64,000 nucleotides of DNA from an uncultured Fibrobacter sp. (GTDB taxonomy: Bacteria > Fibrobacterota > Fibrobacteria > Fibrobacterales > Fibrobacteraceae): contig NZ_CAMVDO010000001.1 of the NCBI RefSeq assembly GCF_947166265.1, positions 1 through 64,000 on the forward strand. The letters are read 5' to 3'. Position numbers and translations under genes: made by a program. Numbering within the stretch: position 1 is the stretch's first letter; each line of letters begins with the position of its first letter. The notes beneath the pieces were generated by a model. It did no database searches. It worked only from the letters and a program-made list of their open reading frames with translations, and was not told the DNA's origin. Of this stretch, positions 8,761-56,447 are shown piece after piece.

Positions 8761-8770
8761 AAAAAGGAGA

Positions 8771-9038
8771 AGGCCTCTGCGTAAAGCGGAGGCTCGCTGA
8801 ATTTGGGAAAGGAGGGTGTTAGGGAGGGCGGAGCCTTCCCTTGTTGGGGAAGGCCTCTGCGTAAAGCAGAGGCTCGCTGAATTTGGAAAAGGAGGGTGTT
8901 AGGGAGGGCGGAGCCTTCCCTTGTTGGGGAAGGCCTCTGCGTAAAGCGGAGGCTCGCTGAATTTGGGAAAGGAGGGTGTTAGGGAGGGCGGAGCCTTCCC
9001 TTGTTGGGGAAGGCCTCTGCGTAAAGCAGAGGCCTTCA
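8771..9038. repeat. 80-bp tandem repeat array, three full units plus a partial fourth
   Basis: Units start at 8771, 8851, 8931 and 9011 and abut without spacers. Units 1 and 3 are identical; unit 2 differs at two positions. Each unit has two hairpin-forming parts: CCTCTGC-GTAAA-GCRGAGG at its start, and CCTTCCC-TTGTT-GGGGAAGG across the junction with the next unit. The partial fourth unit ends as a perfect 12-bp inverted repeat (GAAGGCCTCTGC with GCAGAGGCCTTC) directly downstream of the RNase P RNA. The period of 80 is not a multiple of three, so the array is not coding. Confidence 0.9.
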
Positions 9039-9040
9039 TA

Positions 9041-9427
<387 letters not shown>

Positions 9428-12142: not shown

Positions 12143-12306
12143 GGGCGCATATAGCACGGTTCGGTCATGTCAATTCGTGCAAGCACGATTGACGCGACTC
12201 TCGCCTTAAGCTAAATTGGCGCCCTTTCTGGGCGCATATAGCACGGTTCGGTCATGTCAATTCGTGCAAGCACGATTGACGCGACTCTCACCTTAAGCTA
12301 TATTTG
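12143..12306. repeat. 87-bp direct duplication carrying the cmk promoter
   Basis: GGGCGCATATAGCACGGTTC starts copy 1 at 12143 and copy 2 at 12230. Each copy holds GTCAATTCGTGC-AA-GCACGATTGAC, an inverted repeat with one bulged T. Copy 1 ends in CTAAATTGGCGCCC, while copy 2 ends in CTATATTTGTCCCC. Thus only the second copy has a good TATATTTG box. AAAGGGCGC at 12140 and GCGCCCTTT at 12219-12227 bracket copy 1 as inverted repeats. Confidence 0.9.
12299..12306 (+). promoter_or_regulatory. -7 box of cmk
   Basis: TATATTTG lies 9 nt before the ATG at 12316, in the second copy of the 87-bp duplication. Confidence 0.6.
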
Positions 12307-14783: not shown

Positions 14784-14856
14784 TTAGAGCAACTACGTCA
14801 TTGCGAACCCGAAAGGGTGAAGCAATCTCTAGCAAGCATTAAATAAAAGCTTAAGG

Positions 14857-15023: not shown

Positions 15024-16544
15024 ATGAATCTCGCTGGAAAGAAAATTTTGCTCGGAGTCTCGGGCGGCATTGCCGTGTATAAGAGCTGCGAGCTGTTGCG
15101 CCTGCTGCAAAAGAAGGGCGCCGAAGTGCGCGTGTGCATGACCGACGCAGCGACAGAGTTCGTAGCGCCGCTGACTTTTGCAAGCCTCTCCAAGTGCCCC
15201 GTGTACCTGAAGAACGGAGCCGTCGAGGCGCGCCCTTTCCAGCACATTGATTTTCCGCGATGGGCAGACCTTTACCTAGTGGTGCCCGCGACAGCGAACG
15301 TCATCGGTAAATTTGCCTGCGGCATTGCCGACGATCCGGTGAGCCTTTGCTTTATGAGCTGCACGTGCCCGCGGGTGATTGCGCCTGCGATGAATGTGGC
15401 CATGTACAATTCTCCGGCGGTAAAGCGCAACCTCGAGATTTTGCGCGGATTTGAAAACACGACCGTGTTGGAATCGCCTGCAGGGGAACTCGCCTGTGGC
15501 GAAGTCGGACAAGGTCGCCTGATGGAACCGGCAGAAATTGTCGCTTATTTGGAGACGAGAGACGACAAATGCGTAGATCGAGTGTCGCGACCAAGCTTGC
15601 TTGGGCATGACCGAGATCAGCATTTGGGACAAGAGCGAAGCGATTGTCCAAAGACGAGAGACGAGAGTAGGAATTCGGCAACAAACAAGTTCACAGAGCC
15701 TGCCGAAATGAACGCTGCCGAGAAGGGGGCAAGCCTGCCCCTCGCTGCAGCCGCTTGCGCGTCTTCCGCTACCCCATCTAACGGGGGACACCCCCGTAAC
15801 GCCCCCGCGCCAGCTTGTCCTGTCGCAAAGGACATCGCCCCGACGAAAGACGCGACACTCCCCGGCTACGGCAAGAAAGTCCTGTTGACTGCTGGCCGCA
15901 CCGAAGAAGCAATCGACCCGGTGCGCTACATCAGCAACCGCAGCAGCGGAAAGACCGCCGTCGCACTCGCCTCGGTATTCTACGCCAACGGTTTCAGCGT
16001 CGAAGTCGTCGCGGGCCCGATGGAGGCGGCGTTCCCGGGCGGAGTGAAAGTGACCCGCGTGAAAAGCGCCCGGGACATGCACGACGCCGTGATGGAGCGA
16101 CTCCAAGATGCAGACGCCGTCGTGCATTGCGCAGCGGTAGCGGACTACCGCCCCGCCCACGCCGCCACCGAGAAAATCAAGGATAGCCGCAGCCAGCTGA
16201 CTATAGAACTTGTACCGAATCCAAACATTCTCCGCGACTGCACCGCCGCCCGCAAGGCAAACACCGAATCCGCATCAGGAAACGCGGTGCATAAGCAGGT
16301 GATTATCGGATTCGCTCTTGAAACGGACCACTTCGAAGAACACGCCGCTGAAAAATTGGAAAAGAGCAGCGCCGACGCACTTCTACTAAACGCACCCGTG
16401 GCCGCCGATTCGGGCTTTGGCCGCGACTGCGTACGCTTCGCCCTGGTGAAAAAGGGAAGTCCCGTTCCACCACTCGCCATGGGCGAAAAGGTCGATTTGG
16501 CCGAGACGATTTTGAACTTTTGCCTGGAGCGCCTGAATGGCTGA
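15024..16544 (+). CDS. coaBC: Phosphopantothenoylcysteine decarboxylase/synthase CoaBC
   Basis: CoaBC makes 4'-phosphopantetheine for coenzyme A: CoaB joins cysteine to phosphopantothenate and CoaC decarboxylates the product. The CoaC flavoprotein domain (residues 1-175) has GVSGGIAVYK, active-site His74 in FQHIDFPRW, PAMN at 121-124, and the flap GELACGEVGQGRL with Cys158. The CoaB domain (about 282-506) starts with KVLLTAGRTEEAIDPVRYIS and has SNRSSGK and NPNILRD. The protein is about 100 residues longer than usual. The excess is residues 178-281, encoded by repetitive DNA (15560-15866) inserted in frame between the domains. The last 8 nt overlap the next gene. Confidence 0.95.
   Translation: MNLAGKKILLGVSGGIAVYKSCELLRLLQKKGAEVRVCMTDAATEFVAPLTFASLSKCPVYLKNGAVEARPFQHIDFPRWADLYLVVPATANVIGKFACGIADDPVSLCFMSCTCPRVIAPAMNVAMYNSPAVKRNLEILRGFENTTVLESPAGELACGEVGQGRLMEPAEIVAYLETRDDKCVDRVSRPSLLGHDRDQHLGQERSDCPKTRDESRNSATNKFTEPAEMNAAEKGASLPLAAAACASSATPSNGGHPRNAPAPACPVAKDIAPTKDATLPGYGKKVLLTAGRTEEAIDPVRYISNRSSGKTAVALASVFYANGFSVEVVAGPMEAAFPGGVKVTRVKSARDMHDAVMERLQDADAVVHCAAVADYRPAHAATEKIKDSRSQLTIELVPNPNILRDCTAARKANTESASGNAVHKQVIIGFALETDHFEEHAAEKLEKSSADALLLNAPVAADSGFGRDCVRFALVKKGSPVPPLAMGEKVDLAETILNFCLERLNG
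15560..15866 (+). repeat. In-frame palindromic repeat insert in coaBC
   Basis: The insert contains ACGAGAGACGA words, GTGTCGCGACCAAGCTTGCT followed by GGGCATGACCGAG, the word GAGCCTGCCGAA (15697-15708), and a block that starts AGGGGGCAAGCCTGCCCCT and ends CGGGGGACACCCCCGTAACG. The last block and the GTCG..ATGACCGAG block both recur in priA (37440-37735). The translated product is low-complexity (Ala, Pro, Asp, Arg) and lies exactly between two conserved domains. Confidence 0.85.
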
Positions 16545-37037: not shown

Positions 37038-39326
37038 GTGACAAAGCGAATTCCCAAACTAAACGCCCCCGAAGAAGTACATCAGAAGCTCAAGTCCGCC
37101 ACGCTTACGGACTTTTGCGAAGTCTACATCCCCATGGCCCCCGACATGTACACTTACGGGGTTCCTGCAGGAACAAGTCTCGTACGCGGCGACGTTGTAT
37201 GGGTCCAGTTCGCCACACGTAAAAAACCGGCACTCGCCGTCGTGGCACGCGTCCACAAGGACCGCCCCCCGTTCGATGTGCGCCCCGCCTACCCGCACCA
37301 GTCGCACTACCGCTTTAGCGAACGCTACATGGAAACGCTCGAATGGACCGCACGCTACTATATAAGTACGCCCATGAAGGCCCTGTTCGTGTTCTGGCCT
37401 AGCGATTTCGAGAAATATCTGGATGCCTTGGCATTTACAAAGGGGGAAGCCTCCCCCTGCCTTCAGCCTCAGCTCGGCCTGCACCGCACGCAAACATGGC
37501 CTCAGCCTTCGGCTGACGAATGTTCGCTTAGCGGTCAGGCTTTCGCCGAGTCTTACAGCACCCCTACAGCGGGGGACACCCCCGCAACGCCCCCTATACT
37601 AGACGAGAGAACGGCCCAAATGGGCCTACAGACGAAAAGGTTGCAAGGCGAGAGTCGCATCGACAAGTTCGCTTGTCGGTATGACCGAGCCGTAGCACCG
37701 GACGCCGAAGGCGTCAAAGACGAAAGAAATGCTCCGGCACTAACGTTAGAACAAACTAACGCATTCCACACGCTTTGCGAAGAATTGAACAAGACGGGCT
37801 TCCGCGGCGTGTTGCTCCACGGCGTCACGGGCTCGGGCAAGACACGCGTTTACCAGGAACTCGCCCTAGAGGCTCTCCAGCAGAACAAGAGAGTCTTGAT
37901 CCTCGTGCCCGAAATCGGGCTTACCCCGCAGACGCTCAAGCGCTTCGAAGATTTTCTGCAAGTTCCGATTGTGGTTTTGCACTCCGCCCTTTCTGCACCC
38001 AAGAAACGCGAAGGCTACCTTTCGATTTTGAGGGGAGATGCGCAAGTGGTTCTCGGCACCCGCAGCGCGATTCTTGCGCCGTTCGATTTCGACCTGGTGA
38101 TTCTCGACGAAGAACACGACACCTCCTTCAAGCAACAGGACCCGGCGCCTCGTTACCATACTCGAGAAATGGCTTTCCATTTGGCATACAAGTACGGAGC
38201 CCTCGTGGTTCTCGGGAGCGCCACCCCTTGCCTTGAAACCTTCTATAACGCGCAGGCGAAAAATTTAAAGACCGTCACGCTCAAGGAACGCGCTACGCAG
38301 GCGCCGCTTCCGAAGGTGCAAATCGTGGACATGGGCAAGATGCGCCAGCAAAAGGGAATTCTTCTGTCGCCCGCGCTCCGCGAAGCTTTGACCGACTGCA
38401 TGGAGCGCGGGGACCAGGCGATTATCCTCATGAACCGCCGCGGCTTTTCGAAGATGCGCGTGTGTACCGAATGCGGCGAGACGCTTTACTGCAAGCACTG
38501 CCACATTCCGCTGGTGTACCACAAGCAATACCGTTCGCTGATGTGCCACTACTGCGCCGCCCTTTACCCGGTGAACACACCGTGTAGCGCCTGCGGCGCC
38601 GAAACCTACGAGTTTGTGGGCGGCGCCATCGAGATGCTCGAAGAAGAAATCGCCGAATGGATTCCAAACGCGAAAGTCATCCGCATGGACCGCGACACCA
38701 CGCAGAACGTTGGCGCCAGCGAAAAGATTCTTGACGCCTTCCGCAACCGCGAATACAATATTCTGATTGGAACGCAGATGGTCGCCAAGGGCCACGACTT
38801 TCCGGGTGTGCAACTCGTCGGGGTCGTTGGCGCCGATAGCGGTCTCGGCATTCCCGACTTCCGCTCCACCGAAAGACTTTTCCAGCTCCTCAGCCAAACC
38901 GCTGGGCGCGCGGGTCGTGCAGGCGGAGAAGGTTTGGTGCTTATCCAAACGCTCAAGCCCTCTGAACCCGTAATGCAGTTCGCCGTGAACCACGACTTCA
39001 ACGGATTTGCGAACAAGGAAATGGAAGACCGGCGCGCCGCATTCTACCCACCCTTCTGCAAGCTTGTGGAAATCAGCTGCGGTAGCCGCGACGAAGATCT
39101 ACTGCGGCACACCGTCGAGCGACTGGAATCACTCTTACGCGCCGACAAGAAGCTCATGGTGCTCGGCCCTGTGGACGCCTTCGTGCCCATTGTCCAAAAT
39201 GTCCACTGGGCAAAACTCTACATCAAGACACAAGACCTCGCCCCTGTCCGCAAGATTCTGCATCCGATTATAAATGCACCCAAGCCCTGGGTGCAAAACG
39301 TAGAAATCAAAGTAGAAATCGAGTAA
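37038..39326 (+). CDS. priA: Primosomal helicase PriA
   Basis: PriA is a 3'-5' helicase that reloads the replisome at stalled forks. The protein has 762 residues. The 3'-DNA-binding domain is at about 25-115. The helicase core starts near residue 235 and has Walker A GVTGSGKT (about 257-264), DEEH, and motifs IGTQMVAKGHDFPGVQLVG and QTAGRAGRAG. The zinc-binding insert has the usual eight cysteines (CTECGETLYCKHC, then CHYCAALYPVNTPCSACG). Between residues 134 and 234, where other PriA proteins have a winged-helix domain, there is repeat-derived low-complexity sequence. The GTG start follows a promoter box directly. Confidence 0.95.
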   Translation: MTKRIPKLNAPEEVHQKLKSATLTDFCEVYIPMAPDMYTYGVPAGTSLVRGDVVWVQFATRKKPALAVVARVHKDRPPFDVRPAYPHQSHYRFSERYMETLEWTARYYISTPMKALFVFWPSDFEKYLDALAFTKGEASPCLQPQLGLHRTQTWPQPSADECSLSGQAFAESYSTPTAGDTPATPPILDERTAQMGLQTKRLQGESRIDKFACRYDRAVAPDAEGVKDERNAPALTLEQTNAFHTLCEELNKTGFRGVLLHGVTGSGKTRVYQELALEALQQNKRVLILVPEIGLTPQTLKRFEDFLQVPIVVLHSALSAPKKREGYLSILRGDAQVVLGTRSAILAPFDFDLVILDEEHDTSFKQQDPAPRYHTREMAFHLAYKYGALVVLGSATPCLETFYNAQAKNLKTVTLKERATQAPLPKVQIVDMGKMRQQKGILLSPALREALTDCMERGDQAIILMNRRGFSKMRVCTECGETLYCKHCHIPLVYHKQYRSLMCHYCAALYPVNTPCSACGAETYEFVGGAIEMLEEEIAEWIPNAKVIRMDRDTTQNVGASEKILDAFRNREYNILIGTQMVAKGHDFPGVQLVGVVGADSGLGIPDFRSTERLFQLLSQTAGRAGRAGGEGLVLIQTLKPSEPVMQFAVNHDFNGFANKEMEDRRAAFYPPFCKLVEISCGSRDEDLLRHTVERLESLLRADKKLMVLGPVDAFVPIVQNVHWAKLYIKTQDLAPVRKILHPIINAPKPWVQNVEIKVEIE
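37440..37735 (+). repeat. In-frame palindromic repeat insert in priA
   Basis: The insert shares two blocks with the coaBC insert. One starts AGGGGGAAGCCTCCCCCT and ends GCGGGGGACACCCCCGCAACG. The other reads GAGAGTCGCATCGACAAGTT, then CGCTTGTCGGTATGACCGAG. It also has CTAGACGAGAGAACG and several small palindromes (GGCCCAAATGGGCC, GCCTTCGGCTGA). The two blocks occur in the opposite order to that in coaBC. Confidence 0.85.
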
Positions 39327-48722: not shown

Positions 48723-48840
48723 GAGAAGTGGTTAGTGGTTGGTGGTTAGTGGTTAGTGATTAGTGGTTAGGTTTAAATAATCGAGGCTTTACCGCCCAAC
48801 TATTCCTGTTTACTAACCACTGTTTACTAATCACTTTTTA
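48723..48840. repeat. TTAGTGG heptamer-like repeat and imperfect palindrome upstream of the BON operon
   Basis: GTGGTTAGTGGTTGGTGGTTAG continues as five related units to 48770. After a 40-bp centre, CTAACCACTGTTTACTAATCAC runs in the opposite sense. Both arms could pair over about 20 bp with mismatches. A second group of the same heptamers occurs at 56284-56316. No gene is seen. Confidence 0.75.
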
Positions 48841-56273: not shown

Positions 56274-56447
56274 AGTAAAACTCAGTGGTTAGTGGTTAGT
56301 GATTAGTGGTTAGGAGGTATGAGCCCGCTTCGCTTTGAGGTATGAGGTCGTTCATGTCTTCGACATTCACTTTGAGCTTTTTATAGTCGCAGCTTCGCTG
56401 CCAAAATATTACTCATTGCTCACTGCTCATTGCTCACTGCTATTCGT
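56274..56447. repeat. Repeat-rich trpE-trpGD spacer
   Basis: TTAGTGGTTAGTGATTAGTG (56287-56316 region) matches the heptamers at 48723. It is followed by TATGAGCCCGCTTCGCTTTG plus AGGTATGAGG words, related to those at 21797 and 57929, and by CATTGCTCACTGCTCATTGC (near 56414). No gene is seen. Confidence 0.7.

Follow-up and report, generated by a model that had tools for sequence, protein, structure and literature searches.

Rickettsia palindromic elements (RPEs) are palindromic, occur in many copies both within and between genes, and can lie in frame in conserved proteins; two of their families, RPE-4 and RPE-6, are tagged with CGTC (PMC3733652 and PMC2229807). For many bacteria, PMC3733652 describes intragenic in-frame REPs, many of them in replication and repair genes including uvrA and polA, and reports that two Xanthomonas recB genes were hit by such REPs at about the same site. 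In that paper, di Nocera and co-workers (2013) proposed that GTAG/CGTC REPs act as flexible linkers and described the CGTC type as lacking a dedicated transposase. The bacterial MITEs ERIC, Correia (107 bp) and YPAL are short non-autonomous repeats that form in-frame fusions with open reading frames (reviewed in PMC2229807). In-frame palindromic insertion is already known from Rickettsia and some other bacteria.

The window analyzed here is a 64,000-nucleotide stretch (contig C1, positions 1–64000) of a 3.77-Mb draft genome of Fibrobacter in 89 contigs, in which the coaBC and priA genes carry in-frame copies of two hairpin families, F1 and F2. Its assignment to Fibrobacter agrees with its relatives and with the names of organisms that have the F1 pattern. 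The Fibrobacter repeats resemble RPEs in being dispersed palindromes with tens of copies per genome (70 for F1) and in having in-frame copies in protein genes that are absent from some orthologues (CoaBC, PriA and the glycosyltransferase GT4). In addition, the CGTCATTGCGAG repeats are CGTC-tagged like RPE-4 and RPE-6. However, F1 and F2 are without a terminal CGTC tag, a distinction drawn from the published description of RPEs, several families share one site in Fibrobacter, and the host belongs to another phylum and is not an obligate intracellular bacterium. By analogy, the inserts appear to work like RPEs and intragenic REPs. The original prediction of RPE-like behavior in an unrelated phylum holds insofar as the inserts behave as described for RPEs, but such behavior is not new outside Rickettsia, as PMC3733652 documents.

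With respect to the GTAG/CGTC REPs, PMC3733652 lists five phyla with CGTC repeats, Fibrobacterota not being one of them, and F1 and F2, which carry neither tag at an end, fall outside the class. Two further families, C1 and C2, fit the CGTC type, which that paper defines by a CGTC end, a stem starting with AT and a short tail (such as CCA). Like MITEs, the Fibrobacter repeats are short, non-autonomous and fused in frame to open reading frames; however, the terminal inverted repeats with target-site duplication that define MITEs were not seen in clean form for F1 or F2. The dispersal of short hairpins in the genome is shared with REPs that are accompanied by RAYTs (REPtrons), but PF01797 does not track the Fibrobacter repeats. 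This RAYT-type (Y1) family was detected in 9 of the 37 genomes searched (7 of the 23 from the genus), and here only as an 87-codon open-frame fragment. F1 is present in 37/37 genomes of the genus. Because PF01797 does not track the repeats, a RAYT was rejected as the mobilizer.

In the sections consulted of di Nocera and co-workers 2013 (PMC3733652), no case was encountered of unrelated families refilling a single site across a genus, and a literature search for the literal repeat sequences returned only unrelated papers among the matches listed. The new elements are the phylum, the two families F1 and F2, the strength of F1 covariation and its spread across phyla, and the recurrent refilling of a single linker by unrelated families. 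In-frame palindromic insertion is extended to Fibrobacterota, with two families not found in the literature searched, and the genus offers a natural experiment: from species to species, one and the same joint of a protein is occupied by different mobile DNA. It thereby becomes possible to test whether repeats do no more than persist in linkers or serve proteins as a functional source of them, and what moves palindromes that lack a transposase.

Inserts in the CoaBC and PriA linkers

The coaBC gene (positions 15024–16544, plus strand, 506 aa) was assigned from Pfam and from alignment to CoaBC 6tgv. The Flavoprotein domain covers residues 6–173 and the DFP domain residues 283–471, and the insert lies between both; in the PDB comparison, 6tgv aligns with the protein on either side of it. 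The priA gene (37038–39326, plus strand, 762 aa) encodes the Pfam domains PriA_3primeBD, DEAD, Helicase_C, PriA_C and Zn_ribbon_PriA, with the insert located between the 3′BD (residues 34–121) and DEAD (residues 239–397) domains. Pfam and PDB comparisons indicate that both proteins keep all their domains despite the inserts. According to the original prediction, two repeat blocks are common to the linker of CoaBC and residues 134–234 of PriA, keep the frame and fall between domains. This was confirmed: both blocks are present in frame, and the Pfam boundaries agree in both genes. The reference to two essential enzymes was too strong, as essentiality is expected for CoaBC, whereas cells can often do without PriA.

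In the CoaBC linker, all features of which lie on the plus strand, F1 is a compound hairpin at 15566–15626 that is read in frame and encodes DKCVDRVSRPSLLGHDRDQHL. It is identified by the covariance model (82.7 bits), its fold and stem covariation, and the folding z-score over the surrounding 116 nt is −3.5. Arrays of the GAGACGA heptamer (H7) flank it on the left (15552–15565, from sequence) and on the right (15650–15667, AAAGACGAGAGACGAGAG), the 18-mer of the latter being found at many other genome positions. In several other species an H7 array without F1 occurs alone in CoaBC. Between F1 and the right-hand array is the second small hairpin of the F1 unit, GGACAA..TTGTCC (15627–15649), recognized from its fold and from analogous hairpins after other F1 copies. 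Further downstream are the F3 palindrome AAGTTCACaGAGCCTGCCGAAaTGAAC, of the GAGCCTGCCGAA type (15687–15713), which has other in-frame copies in PolA, a topoisomerase and YidC, and the F2 double hairpin (15724–15806), which is in frame, encodes GASLPLAAAACASSATPSNGGHPRNAP, has at least 15 further copies in its own genome and is found in CoaBC of 18 of 30 species.

In PriA, again on the plus strand, a long-spacer form of F2 is read in frame at 37441–37594 (KGEASPCLQ..STPTAGDTPATPP; pattern and sequence), and a short form stands at the equivalent place in two other species (G034 and G005). It is followed by a heptamer array with an internal hairpin (37599–37635, CTAGACGAGAGAACGGCCCAAATGGGCCTACAGACGA) that is common to PriA of species G010, by an in-frame F1 compound hairpin (37636–37700, KRLQGESRIDKFACRYDRAVAP; covariance model 53.1 bits, E=2e-13) and by the second small hairpin of the F1 unit (37701–37715, GACGCCGAAGGCGTC, from sequence). 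The order is F1 then F2 in CoaBC and F2 then F1 in PriA, so these coordinates bear out the predicted opposite arrangement. The claim that the blocks move independently is supported, and a number of close relatives lack them at these positions. Between genes, two F1 copies with a longer inner stem stand in tandem at 12149–12303 on the minus strand (50.1 and 56.7 bits; direct repeat D6), upstream of a cytidylate-kinase-like gene, so named from the translation of its open reading frame and not from a family search. An intergenic CGTC-type palindrome, CGTCATTGCGAAcccGAAAgggTGAAGCAATCTC, lies at 14796–14829 on the plus strand; it was recognized from sequence, and its family was counted genus-wide.

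Structure, copy number and placement of the repeats

When positions 15560–15866 were compared with their own genome, 45 BLAST matches were obtained at E<=10, the best off-site matches having E=1e-21 to 1e-15, and they sort into separate modules. F1, which is 61 nt long in CoaBC, has at least 70 copies in the genome (covariance model, E<=0.01). The F2 core pattern gave 13 matches, one of them an overlapping duplicate, versus 0 in the reversed control. The off-site BLAST matches, the 70 F1 copies and the F2 pattern set against its control show that the shared blocks are not due to chance. With 70 F1 copies and dispersed F2, absence of other copies from the genome, which would have spoken against the original prediction, does not apply.

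F1 consists of an outer stem followed by a GGC/GCC-type stem, the internal loop GAGA/CGA, a 3–4-bp stem, a second internal loop (GCG/CAT) and an apex formed by a variable inner stem with a CTTG-type tetraloop; a small second hairpin with variable arms often trails it. Folding z-scores range from −2.8 to −4.0. Among 68 own-genome copies (67 distinct), 88% of cells are paired versus 59% after shuffling, and 20 of 21 pairs show changes on both sides. Covariation reaches a score of 0.685, compared with 0.191 +/- 0.010 for shuffled alignments, with 0 of 500 shuffles as high; fitting of the alignment to the covariance model biases this score upward, but sliding the pairing by one base destroys the signal, and the slid controls, at most 0.11, still leave a large gap. 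The stems of F1 vary freely yet stay complementary, and the loops and boxes are fixed. This variability with preserved complementarity, across copies and phyla, points to a structure-recognizing mechanism.

With the covariance model, 8–82 F1 copies were found in each of 37 Fibrobacter genomes, whereas the 23 genomes examined from elsewhere in the class and phylum together yielded one weak match. A strict pattern scan of named genomes returned at least 120 stretches, and most of the matches listed were from Fibrobacter. Among the matches listed, genuine F1-box hairpins were present in termite-gut Treponema, other Spirochaetes, Oscillospiraceae, Clostridiales, Peregrinibacteria and Paceibacterota, and one Gammaproteobacteria match looks like chance. 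No F1 match was found in plasmids and phages, and at the Rfam gathering threshold the whole window contained only RNase P RNA, with F1 left unmatched. F1-type hairpins with boxes GCGAGAGTCGCG and CATGACCGAGCGA were noted at loci L250, L256, L257, L259, L262, L267, L270, L277, L295, L301, L308 and L320, from termite-gut Spirochaetes, Firmicutes and candidate phyla, where the stem arms are quite different.

F2 is a G/C-rich double hairpin that reads AGGGGG-N-CCCCCT, a spacer, and then ACCCC-N-(GC)GGGGG-ACA-CCCCC(GC)-AACGCCCCC; a second subfamily has the arms CTAGGGG..CCCCTAA. The F2 core is present 0–20 times per Fibrobacter genome and in few copies in other genera, and the reversed controls together gave 1 match. 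C1 (GTCATTGCGAG..GAAGCAATC) and C2 (GTCATCCTGAGC..GAAGGATC) reach 52 and 68 copies per genome, respectively, with 0 matches in reversed controls. The C1 consensus, CGTCATTGCGAG..GAAGCAATCCA, is identical at 36/36 positions to a Methylosinus plasmid locus.

Three of about 67 F1 copies lie inside intact genes (CoaBC, PriA and a UvrA-like gene), each of them interior and in frame; the gene finder used for this count marks ∼82% of the window as coding. Between co-directional genes (n = 31), 16 copies run with and 15 against the direction of the genes, 14 copies lie between convergent and 9 between divergent genes. For F2, 8 of 18 mapped copies are interior and in frame, in CoaBC, PriA, GT4, FeoB, an RlmL-like methyltransferase, a peptidase-MA-like protein, a TonB-plug protein and, in reversed orientation, a periplasmic binding protein; all seven forward-strand intragenic copies of the genome read ACC CCN. 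In-frame F3 and C1 copies are found in PolA (L022), a type IA topoisomerase (L017) and YidC (L012), and the PolA insert falls between the 5′-3′ exonuclease, which ends at residue 282, and the 3′-5′ exonuclease, which begins at residue 358. These palindromes, of the GAGCCTGCCGAA and CGTC types, fit the preference that intragenic REPs have been reported to show for genes of replication and repair.

The repeats are also found inside one another. In GT4 of species G019 (L416), F1 interrupts F2 between GGGGACA and CACCCC, and another F1 lies inside an GTCATCCTGA..GTCGAAGGATC element; in the related G014, F2 is uninterrupted at the same place of GT4. In CoaBC of G019 (L038), F1 interrupts the other F2 hairpin. 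Both F1-in-F2 insertions are at a hairpin tip, n = 2 being too small a number to generalize from. From this nesting within other repeats it follows that F1 moves as a unit. At L049, F2 has a further insertion between ACCCCTTCT and AGCGGGGG. The two AGACGA units on either side of F1 in priA of the window genome are direct neighbors in PriA of G010, so F1 sits between heptamer units. All three F1 copies located in intact genes have AGACGA immediately upstream, versus 10 of the 43 copies listed overall (hypergeometric p about 0.01, by hand). The outer stem of F1 acts as an inverted repeat, and the flanking AGACGA units pre-exist as heptamer arrays, so a duplication is indistinguishable from the array.

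Orthologous sites across Fibrobacter

Orthologous sites were compared in CoaBC (30 species), PriA (30 species) and GT4 (C14:5927–7279 in the window genome; 20 species). The proposed alignment of coaBC and priA from related Fibrobacter revealed that the inserts are absent in some of them, and protein-level conservation of the blocks in distant CoaBC and PriA homologues, which would have counted against insertion, was not seen. F1 is absent at both sites in congeneric orthologues with flanks up to 95–98% identical. The frame is kept throughout, whether other species have F2, another palindrome, an array of the GACGAGA heptamer or no repeat at the site. At least one defined repeat occupies the CoaBC linker in 28 of 30 species (F2 in 18, a heptamer array in 8, C2 in 4, GAGCCTG-type palindromes in 3, C1 in 2 and other arrays in 2). 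At stringent patterns F1 is found in CoaBC of this genome only, in addition to a diverged reversed copy inside F2 in G019 (L038). The PriA linker has repeats in 8 of 30 species, one of them (G020) by a weak and doubtful heptamer match; the remaining seven are this genome and its closest relatives, and 22 species have a plain linker of 19–43 residues. F1 in PriA is confined to this genome and absent from 29/29 congeneric PriA proteins. In GT4, repeats are present in the linker between the N- and C-domains in 15 of 20 species (F2, heptamers, F1, C2 or another array) and at a second site, a loop of the C-terminal domain, in 7 of 20 (C1, C2, heptamers or F1).

The same patterns gave 0 matches in 200 equal-length flanking coding control pieces; looser patterns had produced control matches for F1 and tandem repeats, and the stricter set was used. 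The pattern families were partly defined after viewing the linkers, but F1, F2, C1 and C2 were counted independently genome-wide, and the argument therefore rests on these four and not on the class of other tandem repeats. On a tree of the CoaBC and PriA cores, the CoaBC linker content changed at least 14 times over 27 species, a count in which gain and loss are inseparable as the tree is unrooted. G001 and G014, which are close sister species, have different contents at CoaBC and at both GT4 sites. Some seemingly empty sites (GT4 in G003, G005 and G010, GAGACGGGGACGGGGAACGCC) look like remnants of deletions, so gain and loss are not always separable. Being present in 18 of 30 species, F2 in CoaBC is old within the genus, and the block is thus partly inherited rather than freshly inserted; it may be one ancient insertion with later losses.

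Origin of the inserts and alternative explanations

The inserts are most probably non-autonomous mobile palindromes filtered by selection, whose coding survivors lie in frame in linkers (probability roughly 0.8). The repeats exist in many copies, are absent or different at orthologous sites in close relatives, are nested, and in coding sequence are in frame in linkers or in one recurrent loop. Hairpin-forming repeats would have spread through Fibrobacter genomes at the DNA level, landing mostly between genes. Selection would remove insertions that break the frame or the fold, so that the survivors would be stop-free frames at tolerant linkers. Once tolerant, a linker would become a lasting site at which repeats accumulate, nest, are replaced and are lost, and one linker would then hold different repeats in different species. 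The heptamer arrays may assist: (GAGACGA)n is stop-free in six frames and one unit shifts the frame by one, so slippage by a single unit could restore the frame.

The very strong compensatory variation of F1 (0.685 vs 0.191 +/- 0.010), the conservation of its internal boxes and tetraloop, and the same design in other phyla would suit a structured RNA or regulatory hairpin selected primarily for its fold, with the coding copies incidental. We consider this unlikely, though worth keeping in view, because the window has no Rfam match beyond RNase P, F1 has no fixed position or orientation relative to genes, and its copy number varies tenfold between species. The lack of a preferred gene position or direction weakens a regulatory RNA role for F1. 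A cis-regulatory RNA with a fixed place was rejected, as F1 shows no consistent position or orientation. It is still less probable that the inserted peptides are beneficial and that F2 is kept as a flexible linker rich in Pro, Ala, Ser and Gly. Compared with F1, F2 is indeed enriched within genes (8 of 18 mapped copies), is nearly always in the SATPS frame and is retained in CoaBC of 18/30 species. However, the remaining species, close relatives among them, have unrelated sequences in its place, which shows that its particular sequence is dispensable, and the frame bias is expected anyway, since one forward frame of TCTAGC-type copies has a stop.

Linkers evolve fast everywhere, and the heptamers and the ACGAGTT and AACAATT arrays are tandem repeats able to grow by slippage, so one might regard the linkers as ordinary low-complexity or tandem repeats diverged by slippage, with a likeness due to convergence on G/C-rich or charged codons. 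We consider this very improbable: F1 and F2 are long, structured and match intergenic copies, the 200 flanking coding pieces contained 0 repeat matches, and many species have tens of copies per genome of the GTCATTGCGAG and GTCATCCTGAGC elements seen in the linkers, against 0 matches in reversed controls. For F1, F2 and the CGTC-type inserts, slippage is refuted by the dispersed copies. The draft state of the genome, with its 89 contigs, invites the suspicion that repeats were joined into genes by assembly or binning, but the reading frames are intact, each domain picks up again at the correct residue and other, independent Fibrobacter genomes, some in ∼10–20 contigs, carry the same kind of inserts, which leaves an artefact scarcely credible.

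The reading of the inserts as mobile palindromes can be extended, tentatively and somewhat against the odds, to the proposal that defined linker and loop positions of Fibrobacter proteins are recurrent landing sites at which unrelated palindrome families arrive, become nested (to date at hairpin tips) and take one another's place in frame, at a pace exceeding that of speciation. F1 would be a cross-phylum mobile hairpin whose stems are rewritten yet kept complementary by structure-recognizing machinery, and repeats would be a main source of new linker sequence in the genus. The copies common to CoaBC and PriA could in part have spread by recombination between repeats rather than by transposition.

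At L181 (G000:C31, about 10.9–11.8 kb), a 3′ fragment of a valyl-tRNA synthetase gene is fused to foreign sequence upstream and contains F1 in frame, and the C-terminal end of the synthetase is repeated beyond a second F1 copy; F1 may take part in such rearrangements. Within the window, the RNase P RNA gene (9037–9424, minus strand) adjoins three 80-bp tandem copies of a palindromic repeat, GAAGGCCTCTGCGTAAAGCAGAGGC (8766–9424 in all), and GTGGTTAGTGGTTAGTG arrays occur at 48728–48771 and 56285–56314, a motif that is also found near intergenic F1 elsewhere (e.g. L018).
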